Of a DNA stretch of 64,000 bases, positions 2,040 to 36,038 are shown in pieces. The DNA lies in the NCBI RefSeq assembly GCF_007860105.1, contig NZ_SJPU01000001.1:1532118-1596117 (forward strand), given 5' to 3'. Numbering within the stretch: the stretch's first letter is position 1; each line of letters opens with the position of its first letter. The DNA is from Allorhodopirellula heiligendammensis. Lineage in GTDB: Bacteria > Planctomycetota > Planctomycetia > Pirellulales > Pirellulaceae. The translations under genes and the position numbers were made by a program. The notes beneath the pieces are model-generated. The model worked only from the letters and a program-made list of their open reading frames with translations, was not told where the DNA came from and did no database searches.

Positions 2040-2113
2040 CGGCGACAAACGCCCTACCGATGCTTTATAATTGGCATCCACTGTCCATCTGAATTCACCT
2101 GGAATTGCCCTGC

Positions 2114-2779
2114 ATGATTGCTTCATCGAAAGCTGCCAAACCCGAGTCTGACGCGGACTCCCCCAGTGAGAAAACGCCGTTTTTCGTTGACAAAAACGCC
2201 CCCAAGAACGATGCGGTCGACTATCCGGCGATCGAGCAAGCTGTGCGCGTGATTTTGGGCGCAGTTGGCGAAGACCCTGATCGCGAGGGATTGCTCGAGA
2301 CACCGGCGAGGGTAGCGAGGATGTACGCCGAGATGTTCGCCGGGCTGAAATCGGATCCCGGCCGCCATTTAGAAAAAGTGTTCGAGGAAGACTACGATGA
2401 GATTGTGCTCGTCCGAGACATTAGCTTTTGCAGCATGTGCGAACATCATTTGCTGCCTTTCACGGGGAAGGCCCACATCGCGTATCTACCCAGCGGCAAG
2501 GTCGTGGGACTCAGTAAACTAGCGCGAGTCGTCGAGGAAGTCGCCCGTCGACCGCAGGTTCAGGAGCGGCTGACGCATACGGTGGCTAATCTGATCGAAG
2601 AACGACTTTCCGCCCGGGGTGTCGCGGTCGTCGTCGAGTCCACCCATAGCTGCATGACGATGCGGGGTATCCGCAAACCCGGCAGTCTGTGCCTGACCAG
2701 CGCCATGCGAGGGGCATTCAAAACCGATCCCAAATCGCGTGCCGAGGTGTTGGGATTGATTAATCGCAGCGCTGGATAA
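2114..2779 (+). CDS. folE: GTP cyclohydrolase I
   Basis: The enzyme converts GTP to 7,8-dihydroneopterin triphosphate, the first step of folate and pterin synthesis. The core from about residue 35 is typical: [19 protein letters not shown], then [11 protein letters not shown] with the zinc-binding Cys and the catalytic His pair, [19 protein letters not shown], and [11 protein letters not shown], which supplies the second zinc Cys. The total of 221 residues is normal for the bacterial type. An in-frame TTG exists 9 bases upstream, but ATG at 2114 is the more natural start. The first 30 or so residues are a non-conserved, charged leader. A likely intrinsic terminator follows the gene. Confidence 0.95.
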
Positions 2780-2802
2780 CGCTGCACAGGGGATGGGCAA
2801 CT

Positions 2803-2821
2803 CGCCTGGCGGGCGTTTTTT
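2803..2821 (+). terminator. Probable intrinsic terminator after folE
   Basis: A GC-only 4-base stem (CGCC at 2803-2806 pairing with GGCG at 2812-2815) with a short loop is followed directly by six T residues. It lies 24 bases after the folE stop. The stem is short, so confidence is moderate. Confidence 0.45.
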
Positions 2822-2963
2822 CCATTAAGTATCGGTCTGGGTTAGAATAGGGACGTTTGAGTACATCCTATTTTCTATCGCGTTTGATTCAGTAGCCGCG
2901 GCGATGGTTTCGTCAAGGGGCTATCTCCGCGATTGCAATCTACACCCAATCGAGTCTACCGCG

Positions 2964-4649
2964 ATGCGTTCTTGTCTGCCTACCCTCCCCTGTACTCTGC
3001 ACCATGCCAGTATTTTGCTGTTAAGCGTGGTATGTATTACGAGTGGTTCGGCTGTATTCGCAGCGGGGCCTGCGGTACCGCCTCAGGTCACGATGATCAA
3101 CGACGCGGTGGAACAGGTGTGGCGAGATTACGAAATTCGTCCTTCAGGTGAAGTCGACGACGCTCAGTGGTGTCGACGAGTCTTTCTCGATGTCATCGGT
3201 CGCATTCCCACCTATGATGAGCTCGTCGAGTTCATGTCCGATCGAACCCACGACAAACGTGGGGCCTTGGTGCAGCGTCTGCTCCATGATGATCGATATG
3301 TTGAAGAATACGCCAATCACTGGAGCGCGGTTTGGACCAATTTGCTGATTGGGCGTAGCGGTGGCACTGATCGCCGCGACCTGACCAACCGCACGGGGAT
3401 GCAGAAGTATCTGCGTGATAGTTTCGCTCAAAACAAAACATACGATCGTCTGGCTTACGAATTAGTTTCCGCGACCGGTTCATCGACCCCGGGCAATCCG
3501 AACTTCAACGGCGCGGTCAACTTCCTGATTGGCAAGGTGAATTCTGAAAAAGCGACCCTTGCTACGAGTAGTGTTTCACGGATTTTTCTCGGCCAGCAGG
3601 TACAGTGCACGCAGTGCCACAACCACCCGTTCAACCAGTGGAAACAGCAGAAATTCTGGGAATTCAATGCCTTTTTCCGGCAAACCCGCGCCTTGCGACG
3701 GTTTGTTGACGGCACCAACGACATCGAGTCCGCGGAGCTCGTTAACGAAGATTTTGCTGGTGAAGCAGGTACTCCAGAAGATGCGCTGGTGTTTTATGAG
3801 ATGCGAAATGGTTTGCAGAAAGTCGCCTATCCGGTATTCACCGATGGCACTGAGATTGGCAAGAGCGGGTATCTCGAAGACACCAACCGACGTGATGAAC
3901 TAGCAACGTTGATGCTCCAAAGTGAGTATCTGGACAAAATGATCGTCAATCGGATGTGGTCGATGTTTCTCGGCTATGGCTTCACGCGCCCCGTCGACGA
4001 CCTCGGGCCTCACCAAGCGCCTTCGCACCCTGTGCTGCTCGACGCTCTCGGCAAAGAGTTTCGCAAATCCAGCTACGATCTTAAGGAACTGATCACTTGG
4101 ATCACGCTCAGTCGGCCGTATCAACTCGAAGCCACATTGGGCAAACAAAATGAGATCGATGACCCGACCATCGGCGAATCACCCAAGTTCTCGCGGTTCT
4201 ATCTTCGCCAAATGAGTGCCGAACAGCTCTACGAGTCGCTGGTTGCGGCCTCGGATGCCAAGGGCAAGGGCAGCTACGCGGATCAAGAGGCGGAGCGGCG
4301 AAAATGGCTGGGGCAGTTTGTCACCGCATTCGGTACTGATGAGGGCGGCGAAGCGACAACGTTTAACGGATCGATCCCTCAAGCATTGATGCTGTTCAAT
4401 GGCGAACTGACCAAGAATGCCACCAGTGAAGAAGCGGGCGGCTTTATCGACCGCCTCTCCAAATCGGGGCGCTCGCCGCGAGATCGACTCACGCAACTCT
4501 ATCTCACGGGACTGGCCCGTCGACCCACCAAGAACGAAACCACGGTTGCTGGGAAACTGCTGACAGCTCGTCGCGGCAATGAAAAGGAAATGCTGCAAGA
4601 CATGTGGTGGGCGATCATCAACAGTAACGAATTCATCATGCAACATTAA
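2964..4649 (+). CDS. DUF1549/DUF1553 planctomycete protein with CxxCH motif
   Basis: Exported protein of a family expanded in planctomycetes. From ATG 2964 the N-terminus reads as a signal peptide ending near SAVFAAG. The DUF1549 domain follows (about 45-260), including [33 protein letters not shown] and the cytochrome-like [12 protein letters not shown]. The DUF1553 domain occupies roughly 320-555 with [21 protein letters not shown] and a C-terminal ARRPTKNE segment. The family function is not established; the CxxCH suggests haem or metal binding in the periplasm. A GTG-type... extension upstream to 2904 is possible but would bury the signal peptide. The DUF1501 gene follows 113 bases downstream, the usual pairing. 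Confidence 0.88.
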
Positions 4650-4762
4650 TCGCCGGCAACGCGACCAGACGCCAAACGCGATGAGGGCGCAGCTTTTTTG
4701 AACTCTCAATTTCTGTACCTGAACCCTCTCTTCTCTACACCCTCCTCTTGAAGGAAAACGCT

Positions 4763-6031
4763 ATGGACCTCTCGACCCCGACCGGCATGACCCGCCGCCA
4801 CTTCATGAGCCACTTGGCTGGTTCTTCAGCAGCGGCGGCAGCAGCGTTCACGCTCGGAAATTCGATCCAGGCCAATGCGGCGGAGATGACTCGCAATCGC
4901 AAATCCGCGATCTTGCTCTGGATGGGTGGTGGTCCGTCGACGATTGATTTGTGGGATCTCAAACCCGGAGCACCGACGAGCGGTCCCTTCCGACCGATCT
5001 CAACGACCGGTGACATGCAGATTTGTGAGCACCTGCCGATGGTCGCTCAGCAGATGAAGCATCTCTCGGTGGTGCGCAGCATGTCGACCCGCGAAGCCGA
5101 CCATGCGCGCGGCCGCTATTACATGCACACCGGTTACGTCCCCAACCCCAACATTGAGCATCCCGGCTACGGCAGCGTGGTCGCTCATGAGTTGATCAGC
5201 CAACGTCCGGAACTGGAGATCCCCCCATTCGTTTCGGTGGGAGGAGCAGGCACAGGGCCCGGATTCCTCGGCATGGCTTGGTCCCCGTTTTCGGTCACCA
5301 GCAGCGGGCGGGTGCGGAATCTCGAAATGCAGATGAGCGACCAGCGGCTGATGCAGCGGATGGCAGCTTTGAAAATGATCGAAGATGGCTTCGCCAATCG
5401 CACCCGCGATACCCCCGCCATCGAGCATGCCAAGGTGTTGGGGAAAACCTTTGATCTGATGACCAGTGATCAAATGAAAGCGTTCAAGGTGGCGGAGGAA
5501 CCTGAGGAGGTCAAGGAACGCTACGGCGTCAATGGCTTCGGCCAGGGCTGTCTGCTGGCCCGCCGGTTGGTTGAAACAGGTGTGCCGTTTGTGGAAGTCG
5601 ATCTGGGCGGATGGGATAACCACGCGGGGATTTTCCCCACCCTCAAAGACCAAAAATTGCCTCAATTGGACCAGGCCATGAGCGCCTTGGTCGAGGACCT
5701 GGCCCAGCGGGAACTGATCGACGACACCGTCGTGATGTGGATGGGTGAATTTGGCCGAACCCCCCGAATCAACCAGGGCGCGGGGCGCGATCACTTCGCG
5801 CGGGCCTGGTCCTGTGTGGTCGGGGGTGGTAACCTCAAGGGTGGGCTGGCCGTTGGCGAAACCAGCCGGGACGGCACCGCCGTGGAAACTGAACCGTACA
5901 GCAGCGAAGATTTGATGACGACGGTGTGCAAGGGTTTAGGGATTTCCACAGAGACCACGTTTACCAGTAAAAACGGTCGTCCGATGAAGATCGCCGGAGG
6001 TGGCAAATTGATCAATGAATTGCTTGCGTGA
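4763..6031 (+). CDS. DUF1501 family protein with Tat signal
   Basis: This protein of about 422 residues belongs to the DUF1501 family, which resembles the sulfatase/alkaline phosphatase fold and is nearly always encoded beside a DUF1549/DUF1553 gene in planctomycetes. The N-terminus carries a Tat-type motif (MTRRHFM) followed by an Ala-rich hydrophobic stretch ending near QANAAE, so export in folded form is likely. Recognisable family segments are LWMGGGPSTIDLWDLKPG, DHARGRYYMHTGY, DLGGWDNH and MWMGEFGRTPRIN. ATG 4763 was chosen because AAGGA lies 7 bases upstream; a TTG at 4748 is in frame. Its stop overlaps the sigma-factor start (GTGA), so the two are probably co-translated. Confidence 0.9.
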   Translation: MDLSTPTGMTRRHFMSHLAGSSAAAAAAFTLGNSIQANAAEMTRNRKSAILLWMGGGPSTIDLWDLKPGAPTSGPFRPISTTGDMQICEHLPMVAQQMKHLSVVRSMSTREADHARGRYYMHTGYVPNPNIEHPGYGSVVAHELISQRPELEIPPFVSVGGAGTGPGFLGMAWSPFSVTSSGRVRNLEMQMSDQRLMQRMAALKMIEDGFANRTRDTPAIEHAKVLGKTFDLMTSDQMKAFKVAEEPEEVKERYGVNGFGQGCLLARRLVETGVPFVEVDLGGWDNHAGIFPTLKDQKLPQLDQAMSALVEDLAQRELIDDTVVMWMGEFGRTPRINQGAGRDHFARAWSCVVGGGNLKGGLAVGETSRDGTAVETEPYSSEDLMTTVCKGLGISTETTFTSKNGRPMKIAGGGKLINELLA

Positions 6032-23284: not shown

Positions 23285-23364
23285 TTGGTTCGATCGAAAG
23301 GTGAAACGAGGAAATCAAGAGAACGTTCACTGTGCGCGACTGCAATAGCACGCGAGTTGCGTTA

Positions 23365-23698
23365 GGCCACAACTGACGGATGCCCGAAAAAAATTTCAAA
23401 CTCTTTTCAGCAGACCCTAATGCCAGCGAAACAGTAATCGAAGCGACGGATGTCGATTTTAGACAGCGATCCGCAATGAATTGGACGATCATGTGTATTG
23501 AGTTGACGTGCTGCGGCGGGTCCTGGCTGGCGAAACGGACTGGTCATCGCTGAGTCCCTCTGCCTGGAGTGACTTGTACCCCAGAATCTACCCGTGTCCA
23601 CCGCAAAATGAACGCCGGCAAGCGTCCAACCGCAAATGAGCCCGACCTCGACAACTCCAAAAATAGCCGTCATCCCACCGGGACGAACGGTGCAGACC
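23365..23698 (+). repeat. Leader segment of the duplicated unit, copy A
   Basis: About 330 bases strongly similar to 26043-26374, from ACTGACGGATGCCC to CCACCGGGACGAAC. In copy B it lies upstream of the large lipase-domain gene; here it runs straight into the relic 3-prime end of that gene. A 57-codon frame (23380-23553) is open in both copies over most of its length but is disrupted by indels at a run of A residues, so coding is doubtful. Confidence 0.75.
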
Positions 23699-23702
23699 CC
23701 GG

Positions 23703-23898
23703 TGATGCTGAATTGGCTGGTGTCGGCATCGTATTTTTCGCTTCAAAGCTCATCCCTGGTGCGGGGCGGGTGAACGTTGCTTCTGAACTCGGGGCGCGAG
23801 CGTATTATATGGGGTTGTCACACACTATACTTTACTATCAGTACGGCCTGATGGTCGATGAAAGCACTGGATGGGACATTCATGGCTATGATCTTTAA
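23703..23898 (+). pseudogene. Relic 3-prime end of a second large lipase-domain gene
   Basis: The frame encodes about 64 residues matching the last residues of the 1247-residue protein (ELAGVGIVF to DIHGYDL), with about seven substitutions. The rest of the gene is absent. The residue matching His1230 of the intact protein, a candidate catalytic His, is Tyr here (TAC at 23842). The frame is accidentally open into the leader repeat from GTG 23569, so a 109-residue hybrid could be made, but there is no sign it is functional. The relic keeps the overlap with the following ankyrin gene. Confidence 0.8.
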
Positions 23899-24943
23899 TA
23901 CATCACGACGTCGTAGGCTACTAAAGTTCGAAGCTGATTTACTACAAATAGCTTTGGCAACGCTGGTGGTTCTGACAATGACACCTGGGTGTGAAGTCCC
24001 GGCGGTGATGAGTTCACTGCTTCCGACTGCCACCTTTCATGAGAAGCTCAATTTGCATGCAGTTGACTTCTTTGAGGATGAACAAGTCGTCGAGCTATGC
24101 GAAGCCATTGAGGACAATGATCTCGATGAGATGAAGCGATTGATTGCGGCGGGGGTTGATGTCAATACGATCGGCAAGGGTGGCGTAACCCCTCTGTTCT
24201 GGGCTTTCCCCGACAACCAGCTCGAAAGATTTGTACTCTTATTGAAAAAGGATGCAGATCCCAACGTCCGTCTCACTTCTGATCTGGGTTTGCCAAACGT
24301 CTTTCGATCGGGAGATACGGTGATGCATTTGGCCGCTCGATCGCAATTCCCAACACAATTTCTCGAGGTGATGAAACATGGGGGTGATCCCACGGTGCCA
24401 GGCAGACACGGTGACACCGTTTTACACGAGATTATCAGAGCTGGGGTGCGAAATGCGCATGAACGAATCGCGGCGGCAGTCGCCAAGGGAGCGGATATCA
24501 ACGCGATCGACCATTTGGAAGCGACACCCATTGAAACTGCCGTAGGACGATTTGGACAATACGACCTGGCGATCGAGTTGCTTGAAATGGGGGCTGACCC
24601 CACGATCGCAAGCGATGAACGACTCGGAAATACCATTCACTCAGTTTTGGCGAATAAGCGTTCGGTCGACAATGGAAAGGGCGTGATGTTCCCGCGTGAA
24701 TATGCCGCCATAGAGCGATTCCTCGCTGCTTTGCAAGTCAAAGGCTACGACGTCGATCAGGCACAGGAGGATATCGAACGCTGGGCCGAGCTTTCGAAGC
24801 AAAACCCTGCACGCCCCGGGTGGTTTCGCAAGAATGAAATATTGCGACTAAAGAAGCGGAATGCGAGGGTTCAAAAAGCAGAACAGCATGCGACCGAACA
24901 AAGCAGCGGAAAACATGTCGAGAAGGCTGATGCCACTCAATGA
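23888..24943 (+). CDS. Ankyrin-repeat lipoprotein, copy A; candidate orphan immunity protein
   Basis: From ATG 23888 the protein has about 351 residues. The N-terminus has an Arg-rich n-region (TSRRRR), a hydrophobic core (LLQIALATLVVLTM) and a TPGC sequence resembling a lipobox, so it is probably lipid-anchored in the periplasm. Ankyrin-like repeats run from about 75 to 260: DVNTIGKGGVTPLFWAF, GDTVMHLAARSQ, HGDTVLHEIIRAGV, GADINAIDHLEATPIETAV and GADPTIASDE. The C-terminus is charged. It differs from copy B at about 11 positions. An earlier in-frame ATG at 23858 exists. It follows only a fragment of the large gene, so its proposed partner is missing here. Confidence 0.82.
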   Translation: MIFNTSRRRRLLKFEADLLQIALATLVVLTMTPGCEVPAVMSSLLPTATFHEKLNLHAVDFFEDEQVVELCEAIEDNDLDEMKRLIAAGVDVNTIGKGGVTPLFWAFPDNQLERFVLLLKKDADPNVRLTSDLGLPNVFRSGDTVMHLAARSQFPTQFLEVMKHGGDPTVPGRHGDTVLHEIIRAGVRNAHERIAAAVAKGADINAIDHLEATPIETAVGRFGQYDLAIELLEMGADPTIASDERLGNTIHSVLANKRSVDNGKGVMFPREYAAIERFLAALQVKGYDVDQAQEDIERWAELSKQNPARPGWFRKNEILRLKKRNARVQKAEQHATEQSSGKHVEKADATQ

Positions 24944-25043
24944 AACATCTACTAGCTTTTGTCATGAGGCGATGAGGACGGTCAGTTCAAAGAGACCGGC
25001 ACCTCGTCCACGGAGATCACGGGTACGCCCACAGGAAATGCAA

Positions 25044-25267
25044 ATGTCTTTCATACATATTCTGCGATTTCAAACACTGCTCGTGTCGTCAGTTTGTATG
25101 CCAGCAGCAGCCTGGTGTTCAGAAGATGGCTGCGGTTCTGGGCCTGCTGTTTCAGCGGCAGTCCAAGTCGATGCCGGCGACACTTCTAGCAGCAGTTTAA
25201 GCCGCGTGTATCTCGATCTCGACATTGATAGCGACAACAACGATGGCTTGTTGCTGCCTTACAGCCT
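25044..25267 (+). pseudogene. Truncated secreted protein with DLDIDSDNN motif
   Basis: From ATG 25044 a signal-peptide-like start (LRFQTLLVSSVCMPAAAW) leads to VYLDLDIDSDNNDGLLLP. The same motif occurs near residue 790 of the large lipase-domain protein (GIDLDIDSDNNNGFNYP), so this is probably the beginning of a related gene. Similarity stops where the IS1182-type remnant begins. A frame continues to 25325 but the residues after 25260 look unrelated. I treat it as a broken gene. Confidence 0.5.
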
Positions 25268-25324
25268 ATTAATTTTCAACACGCTCGCGCTATCTTCTAT
25301 GCTTCACATTTTGGAGAGGTATTG

Positions 25325-25906
25325 ATGGCACTTGGCAAGCGAAGGCCAGAACGGTAGGACACGTTCTGGGTCACTGCCGATAAACTCAGCAATGGACCGC
25401 GGAACGTTTTCTACGACCGGCTCGATCAGTTACTCGCCGAGATCGATTTCGACGGCAAACTGGAGTTGGCAGTCAAGCCGTTTTATCAGAAGACGGGACG
25501 CAAATGCCTTCCACCGGGCATCTATTTCCGCATGATCTTCATCGGCTATTTTGAAGATATCTCCTGCCAGCGAGGCATCGCGTGGCGGTGCGACGACAGC
25601 CGATCGCTGGCTCGATTCCTTGGCTACGGCCCCGGTGAATCCATGCCCGATCACAGCACACTGTCGCTTACCCGCCAACGACTGCCGATGGAGATCCACC
25701 AGTGTGCCTTTGAACTGATTTTGCAAGCGACCCGTGACAACGGACAGCTTCGAGGCAAGACGAACGGCGTCGACGCAACGGACCTCGAAGCCAACGCATC
25801 ACTCAAGAGCATCGTTCGCAAAGACAACGGCGATGATTGGCGGGCCTACCTGAAAAAGCTCTACGAAGAAGAGACAGGCAAAAGCGATCCATCTTCCGTA
25901 TCCTAG
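25325..25906 (+). mobile_element. IS1182-family transposase remnant (premature stop, C-terminus missing)
   Basis: The frame starts MALGKRRPER and matches the N-terminal part of IS1182-type transposases: PFYQKTGRKCLPPGIYFRMI, IGYFEDISCQRGIAWRC, MPDHSTLSLTRQRLP and GKTNGVDATDLEANA. An amber codon interrupts it at 25355-25357, and it ends at 25906 after about 190 codons, where a full transposase would have over 400. The first catalytic Asp region (GVDATDLEANASL) is present and the rest of the DDE domain is absent. Good GGAGAGG lies before the ATG. No terminal repeats were identified. Confidence 0.82.
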
Positions 25907-26042
25907 ATCGCCATAACAGTCCAATCATCGAATCAATGACCGATTGCTGGTCCGCTTCAACTCAGACAGGACCAATTTCATCCAAAGCCTAAGTTCGCTG
26001 GCCGATGACCAGTGACTGGGCGTAAATCAACAGGCGGTCAGC

Positions 26043-26374
26043 CCACGACTGACGGATGCCCAAAAAAATTCAAGCTCTTTTCAGCAGACCCTAATGCCAG
26101 CGAAACAGTAATCGAAACGACGGATGTCGATTTTAGACAGCGATCCGCAATGAATTGGACGATCATGTGTATTGAGTTGACGTGCTGCGGCGGGTCCTGC
26201 CTGGCGAAACGGACTGGTCATCGCTGAGTCCCTCTGCCTGGAGAGACTCACATCCCAGAATTTATCCGTGTCCACCGCAAAATGAACGCCGGCAAGCGTC
26301 CAAACCGCGAATGAGCCCGACCTCGAAACTCAAAAAATAGCCGTCATCCCACCGGGACGAACAGTGCAGGCCCA
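26043..26374 (+). repeat. Leader segment of the duplicated unit, copy B
   Basis: Matches 23365-23698 with few differences. It ends 163 bases before the ATG of the large gene, so it may hold that gene's promoter or a leader RNA. No known RNA family was recognised. Indels in a run of A residues near its left end distinguish the copies. Confidence 0.75.
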
Positions 26375-26537
26375 CGTTTACAGAAAGCCGCACGTCACTC
26401 ACGTCTCTGCCCAGATGCGAAGAAAAATCTAGTTTTCTAAAGAATTTCCTTGGCATGGGGCGTTCGCTTCCCTAGGGTGGGGGTTGTTGGGTGTGTGGTC
26501 ACCGTTGGCAGCGGCTTTCAGAGAGCGTGGGTCAATC

Positions 26538-29500
26538 ATGAAAACAAAATTTTCAACCTGGAAACGCGTTTCTATTTCTTGGAGAGATCTCGGCACCTCC
26601 AGGGGACTTCCGGCAAAGGTCTCTCCACCACGAGATTCGCGGCGGAGGTTGAGTGTTGAAACACTTTGCCCACGGCAGATGCTCGCCGCTGACTTGGGCG
26701 ATCAGCAGGACCCTCTTCCGGCGAACCTTACGGTCGTTCATACGGAAGTCGCACCGCTCGAAGGAGATGTCAATTTCGATGGTACTCTGACATCCCTCGA
26801 TGCCCTCGAGGTGTTGAACTCAATCAACGATCCCAACGCCTTTCCAGCGAGTCCCAAAATGGACTTAAACCAAAATGGAAAGGTCGATTTGGATGACTAC
26901 GCACTCGTGCTGTCGGCAATTGAATTGCAGAGTCACGCCACGAGCGATGACCAAACGCGATCCGGGGGAGACTCGGTTCCCATGGGCGGGGCCACGCAAT
27001 TGACGAGTGCGTGTGACGCCGATGAGGTGCTGTTATCAACTTTGCTATCGACTCGCGAGAATTTGGAGAGCCAACTTGCAGACGCAACAATTCCCTCTGA
27101 GATCAGTGGGTTGGGTGACCAAATTGCAGCGGTCGATTCATCGATCGCACAGGTTCAAGCGAGATTGGATGATTGCGATGCATACGGTGGAGACGGCGAG
27201 GAGGATGTCGATGGGATGACTGCGGGTACGCAGGAAGATCCGTATAGTGGTGACCCCAATGCTGGTGAAAATGGAACCACCGGAGCCACGACGGGTACGA
27301 ACGACGATCCATACTCCGGGACCAATGGAACGCTGGCGGCAAACAGCGGTACCGATTACAGTGCCTCAACTTATGGCTCAACTGTGGGGTCAAGCCCTGG
27401 TTCAGGCTATGGATCCACCGCAGGTACAACGAGCGGATCAACCATTGACACCGGCGGCACGACCTCGGGCACGACCGATGGCGGCGGCTATGGAACCACG
27501 TCAGGGACGAGCACTGGGACTACGACGGGCTCAACCATCGACGCCGGCTCAGGTGCCTCCGACGGCTCGACGAGTGGAACTTCCTCAGGAGCCACCGCTT
27601 CGGGAACAACACCAGGTACGACCATCTATGGAACCAGCGGAAGCACTTCGGGATCCAGTGAGGGAACGACGTCGGGTTCTACAGAGCCCACCACTTTTGT
27701 CATCGCAGGCTTAAGAGCGGGGATGTTCAATGACTTTCTCGATGGTGATGAAGCACCTCGAGTGGTGCGCGAGGGGAAGAATCTCCGCGTCGCTGGATGG
27801 GTAAATGGTCCTTGGAGCGAACGTCCCGCACCTGATCTCACCGTATTTGCAGACATCAACTTCGATGGGGACTTCGACGACGATGGTGAAATGGTGCGTT
27901 TCAAATCAGGTGAATTTGGGGCGCGATCGAAAGATTACGGTCTCTATGATCAGTACTCTGGATTTGACGCGTACTTTTCGATAATCGACGATGGCATATC
28001 CGAGGTTCAGAACGGTGTTCCTGGAAATAATACTCCCTCGGACGATGTCGAAATTCGCATCGAGTTCACTGGCGAACTGATCGAAAAAACAGCGGAGGTA
28101 AACAACGTTCAGCCGCTATTTACATCGCGGCCCAGCGTGACCACTGAAACGGCGTCGAACGGGTCGAAACTTCTAGTGGTTTCTTCCGCTCTGTGGGATC
28201 CTGGTGTCATGGATCGTCACCATGTCAGCGTAAAATGGGCGGACGGGACAACCTCAAACGCTACGGATGAGTCGACGACCGTCGATCCAGTCACACTTGA
28301 ATACCTGCCAACAAAATGGAAAATAATTCGTGTAGCACGACCGATGCCCACCGACGGTCAACCACTCTACCCGATCACCGTCACGCTCCACGATGACGAC
28401 AAGGGCGACACCAGCTATTTGATTCAAACCAGTGACGTCAGCCGGAACAACGACGATGACAACACGAATGGTATCGAAGATCTCTTCGAAGGGGGATTCG
28501 TCTTAGACGACGATGTCGTTGCACTGGAGCTTAGTTCGATCACGGGCGATCATGTCGCTGCTGCGAACCAGCCGGTGGAGGATCCACCAGCAGGAGATGA
28601 ACCGCCACAGGACCAAGGGGCATCGGAGCCCGAGGGCAATTTTTATCTTGGCTACGATACTCAGCAGATCAAGCTTTGGGACTCCCGGGAAAAGAATATT
28701 CAGTATACGCCAGGTGAGCAAAAGGACGTCGACCACCCGTACACTGGCGAGTCGGACGTATGGATTGAAGGGATTGGCGTGGGCACCACGCGAATCACAC
28801 TAAGCTGGCAACCCAGTTTCGGCGAAGATGAGCCCCCTGACTTCGAGCAGGAGCGGAACATCCTTCTCGGTCATATCAACGTGACTGTGTGGGGCATCGA
28901 TCTCGACATCGACAGCGATAACAATAATGGCTTCAATTATCCCGACAACTCTGAATGGGAGGAATATATAGAAGATAGCGAATACGGGATTGGAAAACTC
29001 GTATACCCGGATGCTTCTCATTTTGTTCCCGTTCGCCTACGTTTGCCGGCAGGACTCAATTTGGAAAGGAACGCTAGCACAATCTCTTTCGATTTTGAAG
29101 CGGCGGGTGCTTCTGGCGTGGTTAATATTTGGAACGTAGCGAAAGCTGCGACACGTATGAATATGAATATCCACGAAGGCGGAAACCGAATCTATGCACA
29201 CGATTCGTATTCGCTTACGGACTTGAACTATGATCCTGGGACAGGTGGGATTACGGTTTTTGTCCAAGGTGCAGACGCGTTTCCACGCCACGCGAAAAAG
29301 AAAGGCATTGACGATGCCGGCAAACCTGATGATCGAATTAAAGTGATCCTAAGTTTACCGGGCACTGCACCACTGGCAGACGAGGTGAAGTATATGGTTG
29401 TTGACGTCGGAACCTTCTACCCAAACCTTCAAGATCGTGAGCAATTACGCAATGCAATGGCTTCCGAAGGTGTGTATGAGCAAGCAGACCTGCCTCAATT

Positions 29501-30281
29501 CGCACTAAGACTGATCAGTGAGGCTGAACTTCGCGAACTCGGCATGTCGTGGTCGATTACTCAACTCATTGGTGAACCCGAGTCAGTACCAGGGTTCAAG
29601 AACGCAATTTACCTGGACTACGTATCGCGCGCGTATGTTCTGGCGTTCGCAGGAACGGACGACTACGACGACATTTTAGTTGACGTTTGGCAAGGCATTG
29701 GTGGCTTTACGGAACAATACCAAGCAGCAATGGATATTGGTTTCGAGTTTGCGAGAGTAGCAAAACGCGTCGATGCTGACCATATTGTCACCGGTCATTC
29801 TCTTGGCGGTGGTCTCGCTAGCGCGGCAGCAGTCGTTGGCAATTTCCGTGCAGATACATTCAATGCTGCTGGACTGATGGAATCTACATTATTCGAACGT
29901 GACCAAGATGGTGTTCGCATTGAGGGCTTAGAACAATTTCCTGGCTCTGTCGAGCGGTTTCGAAACCCATCGATGTTGATCGACGCCTATTATCTTGATT
30001 GGGATATTTTAAGCTTTGTTCAAGACTACAGCCCCGCAGTTATCCCTAGCGCCATCGGAAGAAGATACAAAATGGACGGACCCGTTGATGCTCAATTGGC
30101 AGGTGTCGGTATCGTATTTTTAGCTTCAAAGCTCATCCCTGGTGCGGGGTGGGTGAACGTTGCTTCTGAACTCGGGGCGAGCGCTTATTACATGGGGTTG
30201 TCACATACTACACTTTACTATCAGCACGGCCTAATGGTCGATGAAAGCACTGGATGGGACATTCATGGCTATGATCTTTAA
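26538..30281 (+). CDS. Large secreted protein with dockerin and C-terminal lipase-like domain; candidate toxin
   Basis: ATG 26538 gives 1247 residues. Residues 1-60 are basic and end in a LEPR-like motif (RRRLSVETLCPRQMLAAD) typical of planctomycete exported proteins. A dockerin-type pair of Ca loops follows at about 75-125 (GDVNFDGTLTSLDALEVL, DLNQNGKVDLDDYALVL). Residues 230-395 are a Gly/Ser/Thr-rich linker. Ig- and PKD-like segments occupy about 400-690 and a DLDIDSDNNNGF segment lies near 790. The C-terminal 270 residues look like a lipase (class 3/Mbeg1-like) domain: YVLAFAGTDDYDD, TGHSLGGGLAS with Ser1088, YYLDWDILS with Asp1156, and a final YYQHGLMVDES with His1230. The stop overlaps the ankyrin gene by 11 bases. 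A secreted lipase toxin is the favoured reading; a nutritional lipase is the alternative. Confidence 0.82.
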   Translation: MKTKFSTWKRVSISWRDLGTSRGLPAKVSPPRDSRRRLSVETLCPRQMLAADLGDQQDPLPANLTVVHTEVAPLEGDVNFDGTLTSLDALEVLNSINDPNAFPASPKMDLNQNGKVDLDDYALVLSAIELQSHATSDDQTRSGGDSVPMGGATQLTSACDADEVLLSTLLSTRENLESQLADATIPSEISGLGDQIAAVDSSIAQVQARLDDCDAYGGDGEEDVDGMTAGTQEDPYSGDPNAGENGTTGATTGTNDDPYSGTNGTLAANSGTDYSASTYGSTVGSSPGSGYGSTAGTTSGSTIDTGGTTSGTTDGGGYGTTSGTSTGTTTGSTIDAGSGASDGSTSGTSSGATASGTTPGTTIYGTSGSTSGSSEGTTSGSTEPTTFVIAGLRAGMFNDFLDGDEAPRVVREGKNLRVAGWVNGPWSERPAPDLTVFADINFDGDFDDDGEMVRFKSGEFGARSKDYGLYDQYSGFDAYFSIIDDGISEVQNGVPGNNTPSDDVEIRIEFTGELIEKTAEVNNVQPLFTSRPSVTTETASNGSKLLVVSSALWDPGVMDRHHVSVKWADGTTSNATDESTTVDPVTLEYLPTKWKIIRVARPMPTDGQPLYPITVTLHDDDKGDTSYLIQTSDVSRNNDDDNTNGIEDLFEGGFVLDDDVVALELSSITGDHVAAANQPVEDPPAGDEPPQDQGASEPEGNFYLGYDTQQIKLWDSREKNIQYTPGEQKDVDHPYTGESDVWIEGIGVGTTRITLSWQPSFGEDEPPDFEQERNILLGHINVTVWGIDLDIDSDNNNGFNYPDNSEWEEYIEDSEYGIGKLVYPDASHFVPVRLRLPAGLNLERNASTISFDFEAAGASGVVNIWNVAKAATRMNMNIHEGGNRIYAHDSYSLTDLNYDPGTGGITVFVQGADAFPRHAKKKGIDDAGKPDDRIKVILSLPGTAPLADEVKYMVVDVGTFYPNLQDREQLRNAMASEGVYEQADLPQFALRLISEAELRELGMSWSITQLIGEPESVPGFKNAIYLDYVSRAYVLAFAGTDDYDDILVDVWQGIGGFTEQYQAAMDIGFEFARVAKRVDADHIVTGHSLGGGLASAAAVVGNFRADTFNAAGLMESTLFERDQDGVRIEGLEQFPGSVERFRNPSMLIDAYYLDWDILSFVQDYSPAVIPSAIGRRYKMDGPVDAQLAGVGIVFLASKLIPGAGWVNVASELGASAYYMGLSHTTLYYQHGLMVDESTGWDIHGYDL

Positions 30282-31356
30282 TACATCACGACGTCGTAGG
30301 CTACTAAAGTTCGAAGCTGATTTACTGCAAATAGCTTTGGCAACGCTGGTGGTTCTGACAATGACACCTGGGTGTGAAGTCCCGGCGGTGATGAGTTCAC
30401 TGCTTCCTACTGCCACCTTTCATGAGAAGCTCAATTTGCATGCAGTTGACTTCTTTGAGGATGAACAAGTCGTCGAGTTATGCGAAGCCATTGAGGACAA
30501 TGATCTCGATGAGATGAAGCGATTGATTGCGGCGGGGGTTGATGTCAATACGATCGGCAAGGATGGCATAACCCCTCTGTTCTGGGCTTTCCCCGACAAC
30601 CAGCTCGAAAGATTTGTACTCTTATTGAAAAAGGAAGCAGATCCCAACGTCCGTCTCACTTCTGATCTGGGTTTGCCAAACGTCTTTCGATCGGGAGATA
30701 CGGTGATGCATTTGGCCGCCCGATCGCAATTCCCAACACAATTTCTCGAGGTGATAAAACATGGCGGTAATCCGACGGTGCCAGGCAGACACGGTGACAC
30801 CGTGTTACACGAGATTATCAGAGCTGGGGTGCGAAACGCGGATGAACGAATCGCGGCGGCAGTCGCCAAGGGAGCGGATATCAACGCGATCGACCATTTG
30901 GAAGCGACACCCATTGAAACTGCCGTAGGGCGATTTGGACAATACGACCTGGCGATCGAGTTGCTTGAAATGGGGGCTGACCCCACGATCGCAAGCGATG
31001 AACGACTCGGAAATACCATTCACTCAGTTTTGGCGAATAAGCGTTCGGTCGACAATGGAAAGGGCGTGATGTTCCCGCGTGAATATGCCGCCATAGAGCG
31101 ATTCCTCGCTGCTTTGCAAGTCAAAGGCTACGACGTCGATCAGGCACAGGAGGATATCGAACGCTGGGCCGAGCTTTCGAAGCAAAACCCTTCGCGCCCC
31201 GGGTGGTTTCGCAAGAATGAAATATTGCGACTAAAGAAGCGCAATGCGAGGGTTCAAAAAGCAGAACAGCATGCGAATGAACAAAGCAGCAAAAAACATG
31301 TCGGGAAGGCTGATGCCAGTCAATGAAACATCTACTAGCTTATGTCATGAGGCGAT
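30083..31356 (+). repeat. Right part of the duplicated unit, copy B
   Basis: Counterpart of 23699-24973: the end of the large gene, the ankyrin gene and about 30 bases downstream. The two copies differ at scattered positions and diverge fully after 31356. Confidence 0.8.
30271..31326 (+). CDS. Ankyrin-repeat lipoprotein, copy B; candidate immunity protein
   Basis: About 351 residues from ATG 30271, whose first 11 bases are also the end of the large lipase-domain gene, so translation is probably coupled. A lipoprotein-type leader (RRRR, then hydrophobic residues, then TPGC) is followed by four or five ankyrin-like repeats (DVNTIGKDGITPLFWAF, GDTVMHLAARSQ, HGDTVLHEIIRAGV, GADINAIDHLEATP). Ankyrin proteins are known immunity partners in polymorphic toxin loci, and a periplasmic location would suit neutralising a lipase aimed at membranes. 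The first 150 or so residues are nearly invariant against copy A, with changes mainly in the repeats and the tail. An upstream in-frame ATG at 30241 would add ten residues before the leader. Confidence 0.84.
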   Translation: MIFNTSRRRRLLKFEADLLQIALATLVVLTMTPGCEVPAVMSSLLPTATFHEKLNLHAVDFFEDEQVVELCEAIEDNDLDEMKRLIAAGVDVNTIGKDGITPLFWAFPDNQLERFVLLLKKEADPNVRLTSDLGLPNVFRSGDTVMHLAARSQFPTQFLEVIKHGGNPTVPGRHGDTVLHEIIRAGVRNADERIAAAVAKGADINAIDHLEATPIETAVGRFGQYDLAIELLEMGADPTIASDERLGNTIHSVLANKRSVDNGKGVMFPREYAAIERFLAALQVKGYDVDQAQEDIERWAELSKQNPSRPGWFRKNEILRLKKRNARVQKAEQHANEQSSKKHVGKADASQ

Positions 31357-31560
31357 AGGGGATCCAAGTTTACGGATATTGAGGATCGAGAATATCTGTT
31401 GGTATCGCAGATGCTCGTTCTCATTAGTTTTCAATGTATGCTTTTGACTGGCAGAATATTCTTGAGAGTACCTTGAGTTGCCGAGGATGTACTAGGGTTT
31501 TGAACGAACAAGGCACTTCAGAGGGATAAAATGGAGTAGCCCAGGGACGCTAGAATTTCA

Positions 31561-34077
31561 ATGCCAATTCTTCACCATCTAGCACGCACCGGCGGCACTC
31601 TCATCTCTCGCTGCCTGGCGTCGATGGATGGCGTTTGTTTGTTGAGCGAGATCAATCCTGGGGGCACGGATCGATTCAATCCGCTTCGGCAAGCCGCGAA
31701 TTGGTATGGGCTCCTTGCAGAGGACGAAGTTCGTGAAATCGCGACAGGCGATTCGGTGGCCTTCGTCGCGGCGATCGAGCTGATCGCGGCACGGGCGAAA
31801 GAGCGGGGGCTCATGCTCGTGATTCGGGATTGGTCGCACTTGGATTGGATTGGGTTTCCTTTTACTCAGCCACAAAAGAAATCCGCGTGGAACGCGTTGT
31901 CGATGCCGGCGTTGGTTGGTTGCGATCGCCCGTCCGACGCAAATTCGGCGCGTCCGGTGGAGAAAGACGAGGTGCACGGAAATCTTAAGTTAATGAGGCG
32001 CTGTGCGACGGTACGACACCCGGTCGATCAATACTTGAGTATGAAGCGATTGGGGGCTTTGGCGGCCCAGTGGGATGACATGGCGGTATGGCGCGGAATG
32101 CGCGAGTTTGCGGAATTTGTGCAGACGATGACCTGGATTCGCTTTGAAGATTTTGTGCACCGTCCTGATGCAGCTTTGCGTGTGATCTGCGATGTAATTG
32201 GATTGACTTACGACGATGGGTGGCAACTTCGTTGGCAAGACTACCACAAGATCACAGGAGACGCTTCACAGGGACGACGTCGTTCGATTGTGGCGAGGCC
32301 TCGCACAGCGGTCGATCCATCGCTCTGGAATTCATTACGCAACAACGGAGATTTCTTTGCGACATTGGAGTTGCTCGGATATCCGACGCCCGAACCACTT
32401 CGTCGTCGATGGTACGCGGCGTCGGAGTTGCCTGCGGATCGATTGGAGGGTGCTGACAAGCGGAGGCTGGATTGGGATGAAGAAGTGGTGCGGGCGCGTC
32501 AGGCGTATGAGGATGCGGGCGGCGACGTGGACAGTTCACTTCGGTTGGCGGAGGCATCGGGTTGGATCGGCCAAGTCGATGAGGCTGCCGATGTACTGTT
32601 GAAATTGGTGCAATTTTGTGAAGCTGGGCTCGAAGTTGAAGTGAAATCTCTGCCGCGGATCCTCTCGACAACCTGCGATATGCTTGACCGGGCGGAGCGG
32701 AAGTACGAATCCATCCCCATCCGCCGTCGTTGGGCGCAAGTCGATCCTACACATCAGGGGAATCTATTTCACCTTTCGCTTCTGCTCGCAGGCGTGGGCG
32801 AGATCGACGAATCACTGTCGTATTGCCGCCGTCTGCTCGACGTTGACGTGCGACATACGGGTGCGGCAGCGAACTATCTGCTTTATATGAACTACTCGGA
32901 TCGGTACTCTGCAGCCGAGATTTCAAATGAGCACTTTCGCGTTGGGATGCACTTTACCCAGCCTTCCGATTCGTTGCCGCCACGTCCGCGGATGGCTGCC
33001 GAAAAAATTCGCGTGGGCTATCTGGGAAGCGATTTTTATACCCATCCTGTTGGCAAAATTATCTTGCCGATTCTGCAGTCACACGATCTCAAACGATGTG
33101 AAATTAACATCTACCATGATGGAAAAAAATCGGATGCGACGACCAATGCGATCAAAGAATCGGTCGACTACTTTACAAGCGTGCAAGGATGGGCCGACGA
33201 TCGGCTGTTGGAAAGCGTCCGGCTGGATGACCTCGACGTGCTGATCGACTTGGGAGGATACACGGGTGGTGGGAATCGGCTTAGAGTGCTCGCGAAACGG
33301 TTGGCTCCAGTGCAGGCATCGTTTTTGGGTTACCCACATACTTCGGCAATCCCATCGATGGATTATCGGTTTACGGATCGATTTGCCGATCCGCCAGGCT
33401 TAACTGATCATCTCTATGGAGAGCGGCTTGTCTGGCTTGAGCATGCCCACCTCGCTTGGCGACCCTATGGGATCGCTGAGGACATCGTGTCAGTGCCAAG
33501 TTCACAACCGACGCTGGGAGTCTTCAATAACGTGGCGAAAATCTCTCCCACCGCAATTTCTACTTACGCAGAGATTTTACGTCGCGTTCCCCGTGCAACC
33601 ATCTTGTTCAAGTACGGAGATCGTTTCGCTGTCTCGACCTTGAGGGACCGTTATCGCCAGGTATTTGCCACCCACGGAATCTCTCCGGATCGGCTGCAGT
33701 TTCGCACACAGACGGAGACGCTCAAGGAGCATCTGCAGACGATGGCGAATGTTGATTTGGCGCTTGATTCGTTTCCGTACCAGGGCACAATGACCTCGCT
33801 TGAGTGTTTGTGTGTGGGCACTCCAATCATTTCTTGCTGTGGGAATTACTACGCTCATCGAGCGACGTCTGCGATGATGATTCGCATGGGGCTGCAGGAA
33901 CTTGTTGCCGACGACAGGAACGAATACGTTGAGATAGCAGTGGAAATGTTACACGACCGGGGCCGGTTGCCTGGGTTACGCAAAGAAATCCAGCATCGTT
34001 TTGATCGGAGTGCGTTGACCGACCCGACCGGTCTTGCACGTGAACTGGAGTCAACTTTCGAGGAGTGGGTCCGTTGA
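31561..34077 (+). CDS. Fusion: sulfotransferase-like domain, TPR linker and GT41 (SPINDLY/OGT-like) glycosyltransferase
   Basis: This 838-residue protein has three parts. Residues 1-275 resemble a P-loop sulfotransferase: HLARTGGTLISRCLASM fits the PAPS 5-prime-phosphosulfate loop and CATVRHPVDQYLSMKRL fits the 3-prime-phosphate loop. Residues 300-470 look like TPR-type helical repeats (VDEAADVLLKLV, HLSLLLAGVGEIDESLSYCRRLL). From about 482 the GT41 catalytic domain follows: KIRVGYLGSDFYTHPVGKI, LDVLIDLGGYTGG, APVQASFLGYPHTSAIPSMDY, FNNVAKISPTAI and DSFPYQGTMTSLECLCVGTPII. GT41 enzymes add GlcNAc to proteins. The next gene, a second glycosyltransferase, overlaps the 3-prime end. Confidence 0.85.
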   Translation: MPILHHLARTGGTLISRCLASMDGVCLLSEINPGGTDRFNPLRQAANWYGLLAEDEVREIATGDSVAFVAAIELIAARAKERGLMLVIRDWSHLDWIGFPFTQPQKKSAWNALSMPALVGCDRPSDANSARPVEKDEVHGNLKLMRRCATVRHPVDQYLSMKRLGALAAQWDDMAVWRGMREFAEFVQTMTWIRFEDFVHRPDAALRVICDVIGLTYDDGWQLRWQDYHKITGDASQGRRRSIVARPRTAVDPSLWNSLRNNGDFFATLELLGYPTPEPLRRRWYAASELPADRLEGADKRRLDWDEEVVRARQAYEDAGGDVDSSLRLAEASGWIGQVDEAADVLLKLVQFCEAGLEVEVKSLPRILSTTCDMLDRAERKYESIPIRRRWAQVDPTHQGNLFHLSLLLAGVGEIDESLSYCRRLLDVDVRHTGAAANYLLYMNYSDRYSAAEISNEHFRVGMHFTQPSDSLPPRPRMAAEKIRVGYLGSDFYTHPVGKIILPILQSHDLKRCEINIYHDGKKSDATTNAIKESVDYFTSVQGWADDRLLESVRLDDLDVLIDLGGYTGGGNRLRVLAKRLAPVQASFLGYPHTSAIPSMDYRFTDRFADPPGLTDHLYGERLVWLEHAHLAWRPYGIAEDIVSVPSSQPTLGVFNNVAKISPTAISTYAEILRRVPRATILFKYGDRFAVSTLRDRYRQVFATHGISPDRLQFRTQTETLKEHLQTMANVDLALDSFPYQGTMTSLECLCVGTPIISCCGNYYAHRATSAMMIRMGLQELVADDRNEYVEIAVEMLHDRGRLPGLRKEIQHRFDRSALTDPTGLARELESTFEEWVR

Positions 34078-35339
34078 GCCAGACGCGGCGGCCTCGTCGT
34101 GTGCTATACGCCTGGGAGTGGGGCGCAGGGTCGGGGCATGTCCAGAGGTTCCTGCCGATCGCCGATGCGGTTTCGCAAAACGGTGACGACGTCATTTGGG
34201 TACTGAAGGAGATGGATCGACTGAAGTCGTGTCCTACGCGCAAAGGGTATCAAGTAGTGCGTTGCCCGCAGCTGAAACCTTGCCGCTGTGGCGATGCGAT
34301 TCCACCCCGAAATTTGGCGGCAATTACTTGGAATTTGGGTTACCACGACGCGGAACGTCTGGTCTCGGTGGTGCGAGATTGGCTTGAGATATTCATCCGC
34401 ACTCGACCAGACTTGGTGGTCCAGGATTTCGGAGCGACGGCGGGAATGATTGCTCGATCCATTGGGATTCGAACCATGCGCATTGGTACCGGCTACACCT
34501 GTCCGCCTCGTCGCGAACTTCCGGTCGATCTACCTTGGTTTGCGAAACGGCTGAGCAGTGAGGAGCTACAGAACTCGCCATCGAATTCTTTCGCGAATTG
34601 CACAACCTCGCTGGCTTATGAAAAGGTAATGGACCGTATCGCAGCGGCGTGTCGGGTCAACGGTCTTTCGGTGCCAAGCCGGTGGGACGAAGTCGTCGAG
34701 GGCTGTGAGGATGATATTCTCGCGACGTTGCCGCTATTGGATCCGTACGCAGCGGTGCGAGCGTCTCCAACTTGGGATGGCGTTTGGGTTGGGCGTCAAT
34801 GCTTAGCCCGCGTGACCGACGATAACAATTCAGCATCGAACTCAGAGTCAGCAGCGGTATTGGCTTATCTCAAGCCATTTGCTCATTGGAAACAGCTTTT
34901 TGCTGCGTTGAAACAGCTTCGCGTTCGCGTGGACTTAGTCGCCGATGGCGTCAGTGAAAATTTACTGCAGCAGTGCGATCCCGCATGGGTGCGGATTTGC
35001 GATGGATTCCGCTCCATCGAGGCAGCGGCCGCTGGCGGCATGACTTTGATCAACAATGGCAATCACGGATCGACGGCTTTGTCACTGCTGCACGGGATGC
35101 CAGTTATTGCTTGTCCGCTCTTTTTTGAACAGCGATTAACAGCCGAGGCGATTGAGGAGGCTGGGGTGGGCACGTTTCTGGACGTGCGTTATCCCGATCG
35201 GTTTATTGAGACCTTGCGCACTGGATTGCAAGAGGAGCGTTTTCGTGCGCGGGCAAAGCGATTTGAGGAACGTCACGCAAGTTTGTTCCGTGATCAGAGT
35301 GCTGCTGTCCTCGACCGATTGAATCGTCAATTGGGATAG
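34074..35339 (+). CDS. GT1-like glycosyltransferase
   Basis: A protein of about 421 residues with a GT-B fold. The N-terminal domain begins RRVLYAWEWGAGSGHVQRFLPIADAV, the Gly-rich loop seen in MGT/UGT-type enzymes, and contains DLVVQDFGATAGMIARSIG. The C-terminal donor-binding part has VRICDGFRSIEAAAAGGMTLINNGNHGSTALSLLHGMPVIACPLFFEQRLTAEAIEEAG, an NGG/HGGxGT-like loop. The acceptor is unknown. TTG 34074 makes a 4-base TTGA overlap with the previous stop; GTG 34065 is an alternative. Coupling to the sulfotransferase/GT41 fusion suggests a shared protein- or glycan-modification task. Translation beyond the GT domain shows no signal peptide, so it acts in the cytoplasm. Confidence 0.82.
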   Translation: MSQTRRPRRVLYAWEWGAGSGHVQRFLPIADAVSQNGDDVIWVLKEMDRLKSCPTRKGYQVVRCPQLKPCRCGDAIPPRNLAAITWNLGYHDAERLVSVVRDWLEIFIRTRPDLVVQDFGATAGMIARSIGIRTMRIGTGYTCPPRRELPVDLPWFAKRLSSEELQNSPSNSFANCTTSLAYEKVMDRIAAACRVNGLSVPSRWDEVVEGCEDDILATLPLLDPYAAVRASPTWDGVWVGRQCLARVTDDNNSASNSESAAVLAYLKPFAHWKQLFAALKQLRVRVDLVADGVSENLLQQCDPAWVRICDGFRSIEAAAAGGMTLINNGNHGSTALSLLHGMPVIACPLFFEQRLTAEAIEEAGVGTFLDVRYPDRFIETLRTGLQEERFRARAKRFEERHASLFRDQSAAVLDRLNRQLG

Positions 35340-35722
35340 CGAATTTGGGGGAGGCGGCATCGGGATGCCGTCCCTGACGAGACTTAAGGCAGTTCACTCA
35401 ACATTGCTAGTTCGCTAACAAGGTACCGAAGGCTCGCGAGGTTCTTCTCGGAATTTAGTGGCACCGAACTCGCGGTTTGATTCGCAGTTGGCCTGCACAG
35501 TGTGGTGGATTTTCGAGGCATTGACTCCTGCGTCCAATGATTTTTTTGCATCGGTCGAGAGTAGACCGTACACTGACTTGTGCCGGGAAAAACGGACGCG
35601 GGCCTGGGAAGGGATATCTCGGTCGATAGCGCGCCAATGGTGCGACAAGTTCTCGACGGGAATACACTCGTCGAGGACTTCCTTTTTTGCCCATTGGACG
35701 CAGGAGTAAATGCCTGAAAAAT
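35340..35722. other. Intergenic stretch before the nested repeats
   Basis: About 380 bases with short open frames on both strands but no recognised protein, start context or RNA. A minus-strand frame (35415-35945) runs through the mobile elements next door and is probably accidental. Confidence 0.4.
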
Positions 35723-36038
35723 CGGTCCATCCGGGATTGTCGTGGGTAAATCCAGCATGTTGGATTTTAGAGGCATGGCGGTGGCGTCCGAAATGAGCGA
35801 TGCCGTCCCAGGGTAAACGCTGACGGCGGACGCATCCGCCGCCAGCCGAAGGCACCTTTCGGCTCACCCCGACCGAGATATTCCTCGGCAAGTTGCTTCC
35901 CAGCAGAGCTTGCTTCCGCCTCTCCCGGCAAAACGATCCTACCACAGCTGCATCAGCCTGACAAAGATTTCGGACGCCACCGACATGCCTTGAAAATCCC
36001 GCACACCTGGCTCACCGCTGCGAAACCCGAATGGACCG
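35723..36038. repeat. Palindromic element interrupted by a second palindromic element
   Basis: The outer parts (CGGTCCATCCGGGATT at 35723 and CCCGAATGGACCG ending at 36038, with CTCACCGCTGCGA inside) match the two halves of the uninterrupted element at 62950-63030. Between them sits about 240 bases bounded by 33-base inverted repeats, listed separately. Confidence 0.7.
35760..36003. mobile_element. MITE-like insertion with 33-base terminal inverted repeats
   Basis: Arms at 35762-35794 and 35967-35999 are inverted copies with 30 of 33 positions matching. They flank about 170 bases rich in small hairpins (for example GCGGACGCATCCGC, CCGAAGGCACCTTTCGG and CCGAGATATTCCTCGG). There is no transposase frame, so it would need an enzyme in trans. 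The flanking host sequence reads correctly if this segment is removed. Confidence 0.65.

Follow-up and report, generated by a model that had tools for sequence, protein, structure and literature searches.

A Tle6-like lipase and an overlapping ankyrin gene as a probable toxin and immunity pair in the planctomycete Allorhodopirellula heiligendammensis

Why should a planctomycete encode an exported lipase in a gene that runs into that of an exported ankyrin-repeat protein? This question arose from a window of 64,000 nt (the whole stretch of DNA analysed) of Allorhodopirellula heiligendammensis (GCF_007860105.1, NZ_SJPU01000001.1, positions 1,532,118-1,596,117 of the forward strand), in which an original prediction had proposed a toxin followed by its immunity protein. 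The evidence that we present consists of gene content, homology, recurrent pairing and relics, and it led us to propose that the lipase and the ankyrin probably act as a toxin and its immunity protein.

Both genes are real. The first (26538-30281, plus strand; the longest open reading frame, ORF, starts with TTG at 26484) encodes a secreted protein of 1247 aa that ends in a Tle6-like class-3 lipase domain (29463-30278), even if the Lipase_3 match of the window protein is under the Pfam cut-off (16.8 vs 22). Two members of the catalytic triad proposed at the outset, Ser1088 and Asp1156, are conserved: in a 184-row alignment S1088 (29799-29801) is Ser in all 135 non-gap rows, and among 134 rows position 1156 (30003-30005) shows 126 D, 7 E and 1 C. 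The third, His1230, was rejected as the catalytic base, being H in 8 and Y in 86 of 108 non-gap rows; the conserved His is H1223 (30204-30206), found in 108/108. The exported, modular start was borne out in part, as the dockerin type I domain at residues 76-125 (26763-26912) is above the Pfam cut-off (Dockerin_1, E 2.3e-7) and the Planc_extracel (LEPR-type) motif at residues 35-52 (26640-26693) is under it (19.4 vs 25.5 bits). A Ser/Thr/Gly-rich linker follows, its densest 60 residues (27495-27674) being 58% Ser+Thr, and then a conserved pre-lipase region at residues 735-975 (28740-29462), whose acidic motif DxDxDSxN (788-795) possibly binds Ca.

The partner gene (plus strand) ends at 31326 and has candidate starts at 30241 (longest ORF), 30265 and 30271. 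Several relatives begin with MAM or MAT, as predicted in the database, and we therefore favour 30265; the overlap with the lipase gene is real and probably comprises 17 bases rather than the 11 first described, which hold only with the ATG at 30271. The product carries ankyrin repeats recognised by Pfam and is a probable lipoprotein; its lipobox is irregular (TPGC). A simple lipobox test (a lipobox-like Cys) was passed by 19 of 30 partner ankyrins; the other 11 mostly have, by eye, a signal-peptide-like or membrane-anchor start, and the L136 ankyrin has neither.

The pairing recurs. When genomes were searched with the lipase as the lead, 15 of 246 in the order, 7 of 392 in the phylum and 22 of 199 in the family had a match. 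These overlapping sets gave 43 lipase loci, 39 of them with at least 500 bp downstream; a family ankyrin lies within 150 nt downstream in 30 of these 39. Among the 36 usable loci (lipase at the C-terminus and scoring 100 bits or more) the next gene encodes an ankyrin of the same family in 30, at a gap of -107 to +84 nt, and two or more ankyrins are present in 6. The ankyrin-paired loci come from 27 genomes and 17 genera. A scan of genome contigs also gave one weak locus in an alphaproteobacterial metagenome-assembled genome.

The window itself holds a second unit, which the first reading had missed. An intact ankyrin gene (23882-24943, plus strand, ORF from 23858) lies 6.4 kb upstream of the ankyrin gene of the pair and encodes a protein 97% identical to the window partner, without a lipase gene of its own. 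It is preceded by the last 66 codons and the stop of a lipase gene (23698-23898, plus strand; 89% identical to residues 1182-1247), and the whole segment 23698-24977, lipase tail plus ankyrin, matches 30081-31359 at 97% and joins onto DNA (23361-23699, plus strand) that copies, at 94% identity, the stretch lying 5' of the lipase gene at 26037-26373. The simplest account of this arrangement would be a tandem duplication followed by loss of the lipase body from the first unit. A DUF772 transposase fragment recognised by Pfam (25466-25906, plus strand) sits between both units. Beyond the window, a third, partial ankyrin copy (G000:C1:1508636-1509007) is 81% identical over 124 residues and, at the DNA level, 90% identical across 360 nt.

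Three further genomes also have a remnant of a lipase in front of an ankyrin. A search of 27 ankyrin loci for relics had three hits (L075, L189 and L190). G713 and G729, both without any lipase match, have a lipase tail before the ankyrin (81 and 28 residues aligned), and in G220 a 95-aa lipase fragment precedes two ankyrins. The last of three tandem ankyrins of G729 runs into a piece of a sulfotransferase-like/GT41 gene, a family discussed below. G652 also has three ankyrins, of which the outer two are 88% alike and the middle one is 72% identical to the window ankyrin. Judging by these gene arrangements, the multiple and retained ankyrins may be orphan immunity genes.

A profile of 15 lipase domains searched against the PDB recovered Tle6 (7ubz/9cys) at E 1.2e-28, the next matches being lipases from 0.0044 upwards; a single-sequence search matched Tle6 at E 2.4e-8. 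The stretches GHSLGGGLASA and TFNAAGL are common to Tle6 and the window lipase, and Glu393 of Tle6 aligns with D1156 (chain positions counted in the PDB alignment); the alignment includes the Ser and the acid and ends before the Tle6 His. Tle6 is a phospholipase of the type VI secretion system (T6SS) of Enterobacter cloacae, with phospholipase A1 and A2 activity, whose complex with its immunity protein, the ankyrin lipoprotein Tli, has been solved (7UBZ/9CYS); Tli grips the lid helix of the enzyme, and, according to the same paper, a gene for an ankyrin immunity protein always accompanies that of a Tle6 effector (PMC11470151). The window lipase likewise has an exported ankyrin encoded next door. 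A PDB search with this ankyrin was uninformative on partnership, because generic ankyrins and designed repeats rank above Tli. The two systems differ in their carrier, which in the window is a LEPR/dockerin protein rather than a T6SS one; domain searches of the window protein gave no VgrG or PAAR match, the T6SS genes of the genome not having been searched for. We thus describe the window lipase as Tle6-like, a likeness that falls short of naming it a Tle6 effector. A cytosolic form of Tli promotes a methylglyoxal crosslink between Arg180 and Lys461, in the first and last helices, that is required for Tle6 activity (PMC11470151). As the window protein is exported, such activation by a cytosolic ankyrin seems unlikely, and as no Lys follows H1223 we expect no crosslink of this kind on the His side; the Arg side was not aligned.

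Other known systems share part of this design. In a survey of polymorphic toxins, planctomycete members already appear, as do ankyrin immunity and lipase-like toxin domains; a difference from our pair is that Imm-ank is placed there beside HNH/EndoVII-type toxins (PMC3482391). In Staphylococcus aureus, the type VII secretion system (T7SS) phospholipase A TslA is neutralised by the immunity lipoprotein TilA (PMC10730906); this pair, compared by its description only, resembles what we propose for ours in joining a secreted phospholipase A to an immunity lipoprotein and differs in that the lipase of TslA is N-terminal and T7SS-exported (PMC10730906). Our searches of the open-licence PMC literature, judged by titles and abstract openings, brought up no account of this planctomycete pair. 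In PADLOC the window lipase and the GT41 protein were without a match, and the ankyrin matched one candidate model, probably through its generic repeats.

Is the lipase, then, a variable toxic tip, as had been proposed? At close range it is the lipase that is constant and the rest of the protein that varies. A search with residues 690-1247, in which 8000 candidates were scored, gave 215 relatives (E <= 0.001); among the best 120 of the 215, which were listed, all except P0028 carry PF26363, and the other Pfam accessions differ among the listed relatives (PF00404, PF00353, PF03160, PF00041, PF12951). Residues 735-975 gave 39 relatives, in a search limited to proteins of 0.55-1.75x the query length sharing short words; because 37 keep PF26363 and the remaining pair, P0028 and P0123, have 'partial' in their names, there is no exchange of tips at this range. 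Invariant C-termini, named in the original prediction as a finding that would count against it, are thus a feature of close relatives only.

At long range the proposal of a variable tip stood up better. A profile of the pre-lipase region matched 11 of the 392 phylum genomes, its own included; the ten others had no lipase match in the phylum lipase search, and in 12 fetched stretches with this region (L146-L157, 10 genomes) no ORF bears a lipase. These distant matches mostly span about positions 30-178 of the profile and lie mostly far from the C-terminal end of giant proteins, at a distance of 376 to 2280 residues in those whose end is visible. Eight C-termini could be tested (three other ORFs reach the contig end and L151 was left out): two, in L148 (13783-15132) and L155 (5113-7037, minus strand), have the pretoxin domain PT-HINT near their end above the cut-off, that of L146 has a sub-threshold JAB match, and five gave no Pfam match at E <= 0.1. 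The L155 ORF is followed, after 2 nt, by an SMI1_KNR4 (SUKH-1) gene (44.4 bits vs a cut-off of 25.4), and six other genes downstream of such giants were tested with none above its family cut-off. The PT-HINT C-termini and the SUKH neighbour suggest that the pre-lipase region, present in 26 of 45 lipase ORFs, is common to other toxin-like giants.

The lipase in turn is borne by other carriers. It sits behind Rhs_assc_core in L131 and L143, ends an RHS-repeat protein in L134 and another in L058, where the RHS repeats are under the cut-off, and ends giant ORFs in L133, L135, L139, L141 and L142; an ankyrin is the next gene in 6 of these 9. L136 has a PAAR match under the cut-off. The RHS carriers and the recurrence of the pre-lipase region in PT-HINT proteins recall polymorphic toxins, from which the window protein differs in that its close relatives keep the lipase tip and vary at the N-terminus. 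In L058 the RHS-like protein with the lipase tip (L058:6430-9938) adjoins another RHS-like ORF, whose core is similar but whose tip differs.

We propose the following mechanism. An exported surface or extracellular protein, made of the LEPR-type start, the dockerin, the Ser/Thr-rich stalk and the acidic pre-lipase module, would bear at its C-terminus a Tle6-like phospholipase able to cut the membrane phospholipids of neighbouring cells. In the periplasm the exported, probably lipidated ankyrin solenoid would bind the lipase and block it, as modelled on the hold of Tli on the lid helix of Tle6, and would so protect the producer and its kin. The tandem second unit, from which the lipase body may have been lost while 5' DNA, lipase tail and ankyrin gene stayed in place, would now be an orphan immunity gene. 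Such a pair would bring planctomycetes, as well as secreted and RHS carriers, into a lipase/ankyrin toxin system so far described for T6SS, and offers a handle on how these bacteria may compete without an obvious injection machine.

The toxin and immunity proposal draws its support from the adjacency in 30 of 36 loci, the Rhs_assc_core carriers, the kept ankyrins beside lipase remnants, and Tle6/Tli as the nearest solved pair. Also in its favour, distances among the lipases and among their ankyrins correlate (Mantel r 0.81, p 1e-4, n 30), distant relatives of the pre-lipase region occur in PT-HINT proteins, one beside a SUKH gene, and G652 has the ankyrin that is 72% identical to that of the window even though its lipase is outside the 12 nearest of 30. 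Other readings were weighed against it. The lipase could serve nutrition or biofilms rather than attack, and the ankyrin could be a periplasmic helper dedicated to its folding or regulation; an exported phospholipase demands protection of its producer anyway, and Tli itself has a double role as immunity protein and activator of Tle6 (PMC11470151; commentary in PMC10294624). We nevertheless regard this as unlikely, since ankyrins persist beside lipase remnants, at least two of them occur in 6 of 36 loci, and the same lipase stands behind Rhs_assc_core. The remnants amount to natural experiments that point to immunity: where a toxin is lost and its ankyrin retained, an immunity protein would fit better than a folding helper. 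A little less likely still is that the enzyme targets the membranes of eukaryotes such as algae or grazers and that the ankyrin merely protects the producer. Planctomycetes of this kind often live on algae and particles, and the dockerin and stalk would suit a surface or matrix protein. The distribution within the genus fits rivalry among bacteria better, as a lipase match is present in 4 of 13 genomes, and in two lipase-less relatives ankyrins stand behind lipase tails; an ankyrin match was found in 8 of the 13, two of these (G721, G763) being weaker and within longer ORFs. That the two genes share nothing except a mobile cassette we consider very improbable. The transposase fragment between the window units and a transposase-like ORF (by eye) adjoining the G231 lipase fragment could be read in that way, yet overlapping or near-touching pairs are found on different carriers in 27 genomes from 17 genera.

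Several observations nevertheless weigh against the toxin and immunity proposal. One concerns the ankyrin, for which the original prediction had named frequent occurrence without the lipase as contrary evidence, and this is what we found: the 246 order genomes gave 57 ankyrin matches, of which no more than 10, the window relic included, are preceded by a lipase match at up to 1 kb, two more, each second in a tandem, by one within 5 kb, and 45 by none, where 15 of the 57 places were judged by coordinates only and at least four fetched loci (L056, L062, L068, L069) end at a contig edge upstream. The 45 imply that the ankyrin family has other settings. Six of the 36 usable lipases do not have an ankyrin as the next gene (the second lipase of G164, and those of G190, G205, G140, G642 and G590). 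The Mantel correlation is confounded by descent and includes near-duplicate loci (G743/G757, G191/G049). The distance of the G652 lipase (P0018) is moderate, since it retains 42% identity across 84% of residues 690-1247. Selective constraint on the orphan ankyrin of the window is only suggested by a dN/dS of 0.30 between the two window copies (NG86; dN 0.0149, dS 0.0504), as just 24 nt differ, 10 of them synonymous. Finally, the absence of a Lys after H1223 removes the crosslink lysine of Tle6 from the likeness.

The genes that follow the six unpaired lipases vary. The lipase of G205 is followed by an ORF with an FGE-sulfatase domain, that of G140 by an RHS cassette and that of G590 by a 113-aa protein with no Pfam match. 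Behind the second lipase of G164 lies a 208-aa protein (L045:8503-9129, minus strand) with hydrophobic segments and no Pfam match, and behind that of G190 a DKNYY-family protein (L047:4967-5971) with a lipoprotein-like start by eye, a possible alternative immunity family. In G642 a lipase-like ORF (L123:8173-9603, minus strand), with a signal-peptide-like start and GVGVGG in place of GHSLGG, lies between lipase and ankyrin; with its altered serine elbow it is possibly a dead decoy or a relic.

A recurrent neighbour of the lipase is the sulfotransferase-like/GT41 gene (PF13844), which in the window comes next after the ankyrin gene at 31561-34077 (plus strand) and is overlapped by a glycosyltransferase-like gene (34065-35339, plus strand; EryCIII-like and UDPGT matches, both under the cut-off). 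It is the only PF13844 gene found in its genome. Within the genus GT41 is present in 4/4 lipase genomes and 0/9 others (Fisher p 0.0014), and within the family a lipase is present in 8 of 13 GT41 genomes vs 22 of 199 overall (p 5.5e-6, uncorrected for descent). GT41 adjoins the lipase in six loci, two being near-duplicates, and is divergent from it in G164; in G220 the gene facing it encodes a protein that looks LEPR-like by eye and contains long SGG repeats. The linkers of GT41-adjacent lipases have a Ser/Thr fraction of 0.33 to 0.62 over 60 residues. It is conceivable, and we offer it as a tentative idea, that some planctomycetes display a Tle6-type phospholipase on an exported dockerin/Ser-Thr stalk that needs no injection machine and is decorated by GT41 and perhaps the next glycosyltransferase, so that the lipase, ankyrin and glycosylation genes would form one surface weapon. 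Against a link to GT41, lipases without it also have Ser/Thr-rich linkers, some of 0.47 to 0.52 (L122, L126, L128, L137), GT41 is unmatched in 14 of the family's 22 lipase genomes, it is away from the lipase in G642 and G700 with no Ser/Thr-rich ORF beside it, and the copies of G683 and G764 are in pieces.

A few minor features complete the picture. Between the two units of the window, ORF 24861-25325 has a signal-peptide-like stretch and the motif DLDIDSDNND, and is maybe the relic of a lipase-like gene; it contains, on the plus strand, a 37-nt stretch (25213-25249) with an 86% match to 28897-28933, where the lipase gene encodes its acidic motif. L061 has a 1116-aa ORF (1627-4977) in which a LEPR-like motif, by eye, and the sequence GYSHG occur; an ankyrin gene lies about 1.8 kb downstream of its end, and the two perhaps form another hydrolase/ankyrin pair. 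Downstream of the glycosyltransferase gene of the window, two inverted-repeat pairs with arms of 32-33 nt are found at 35508-35999.

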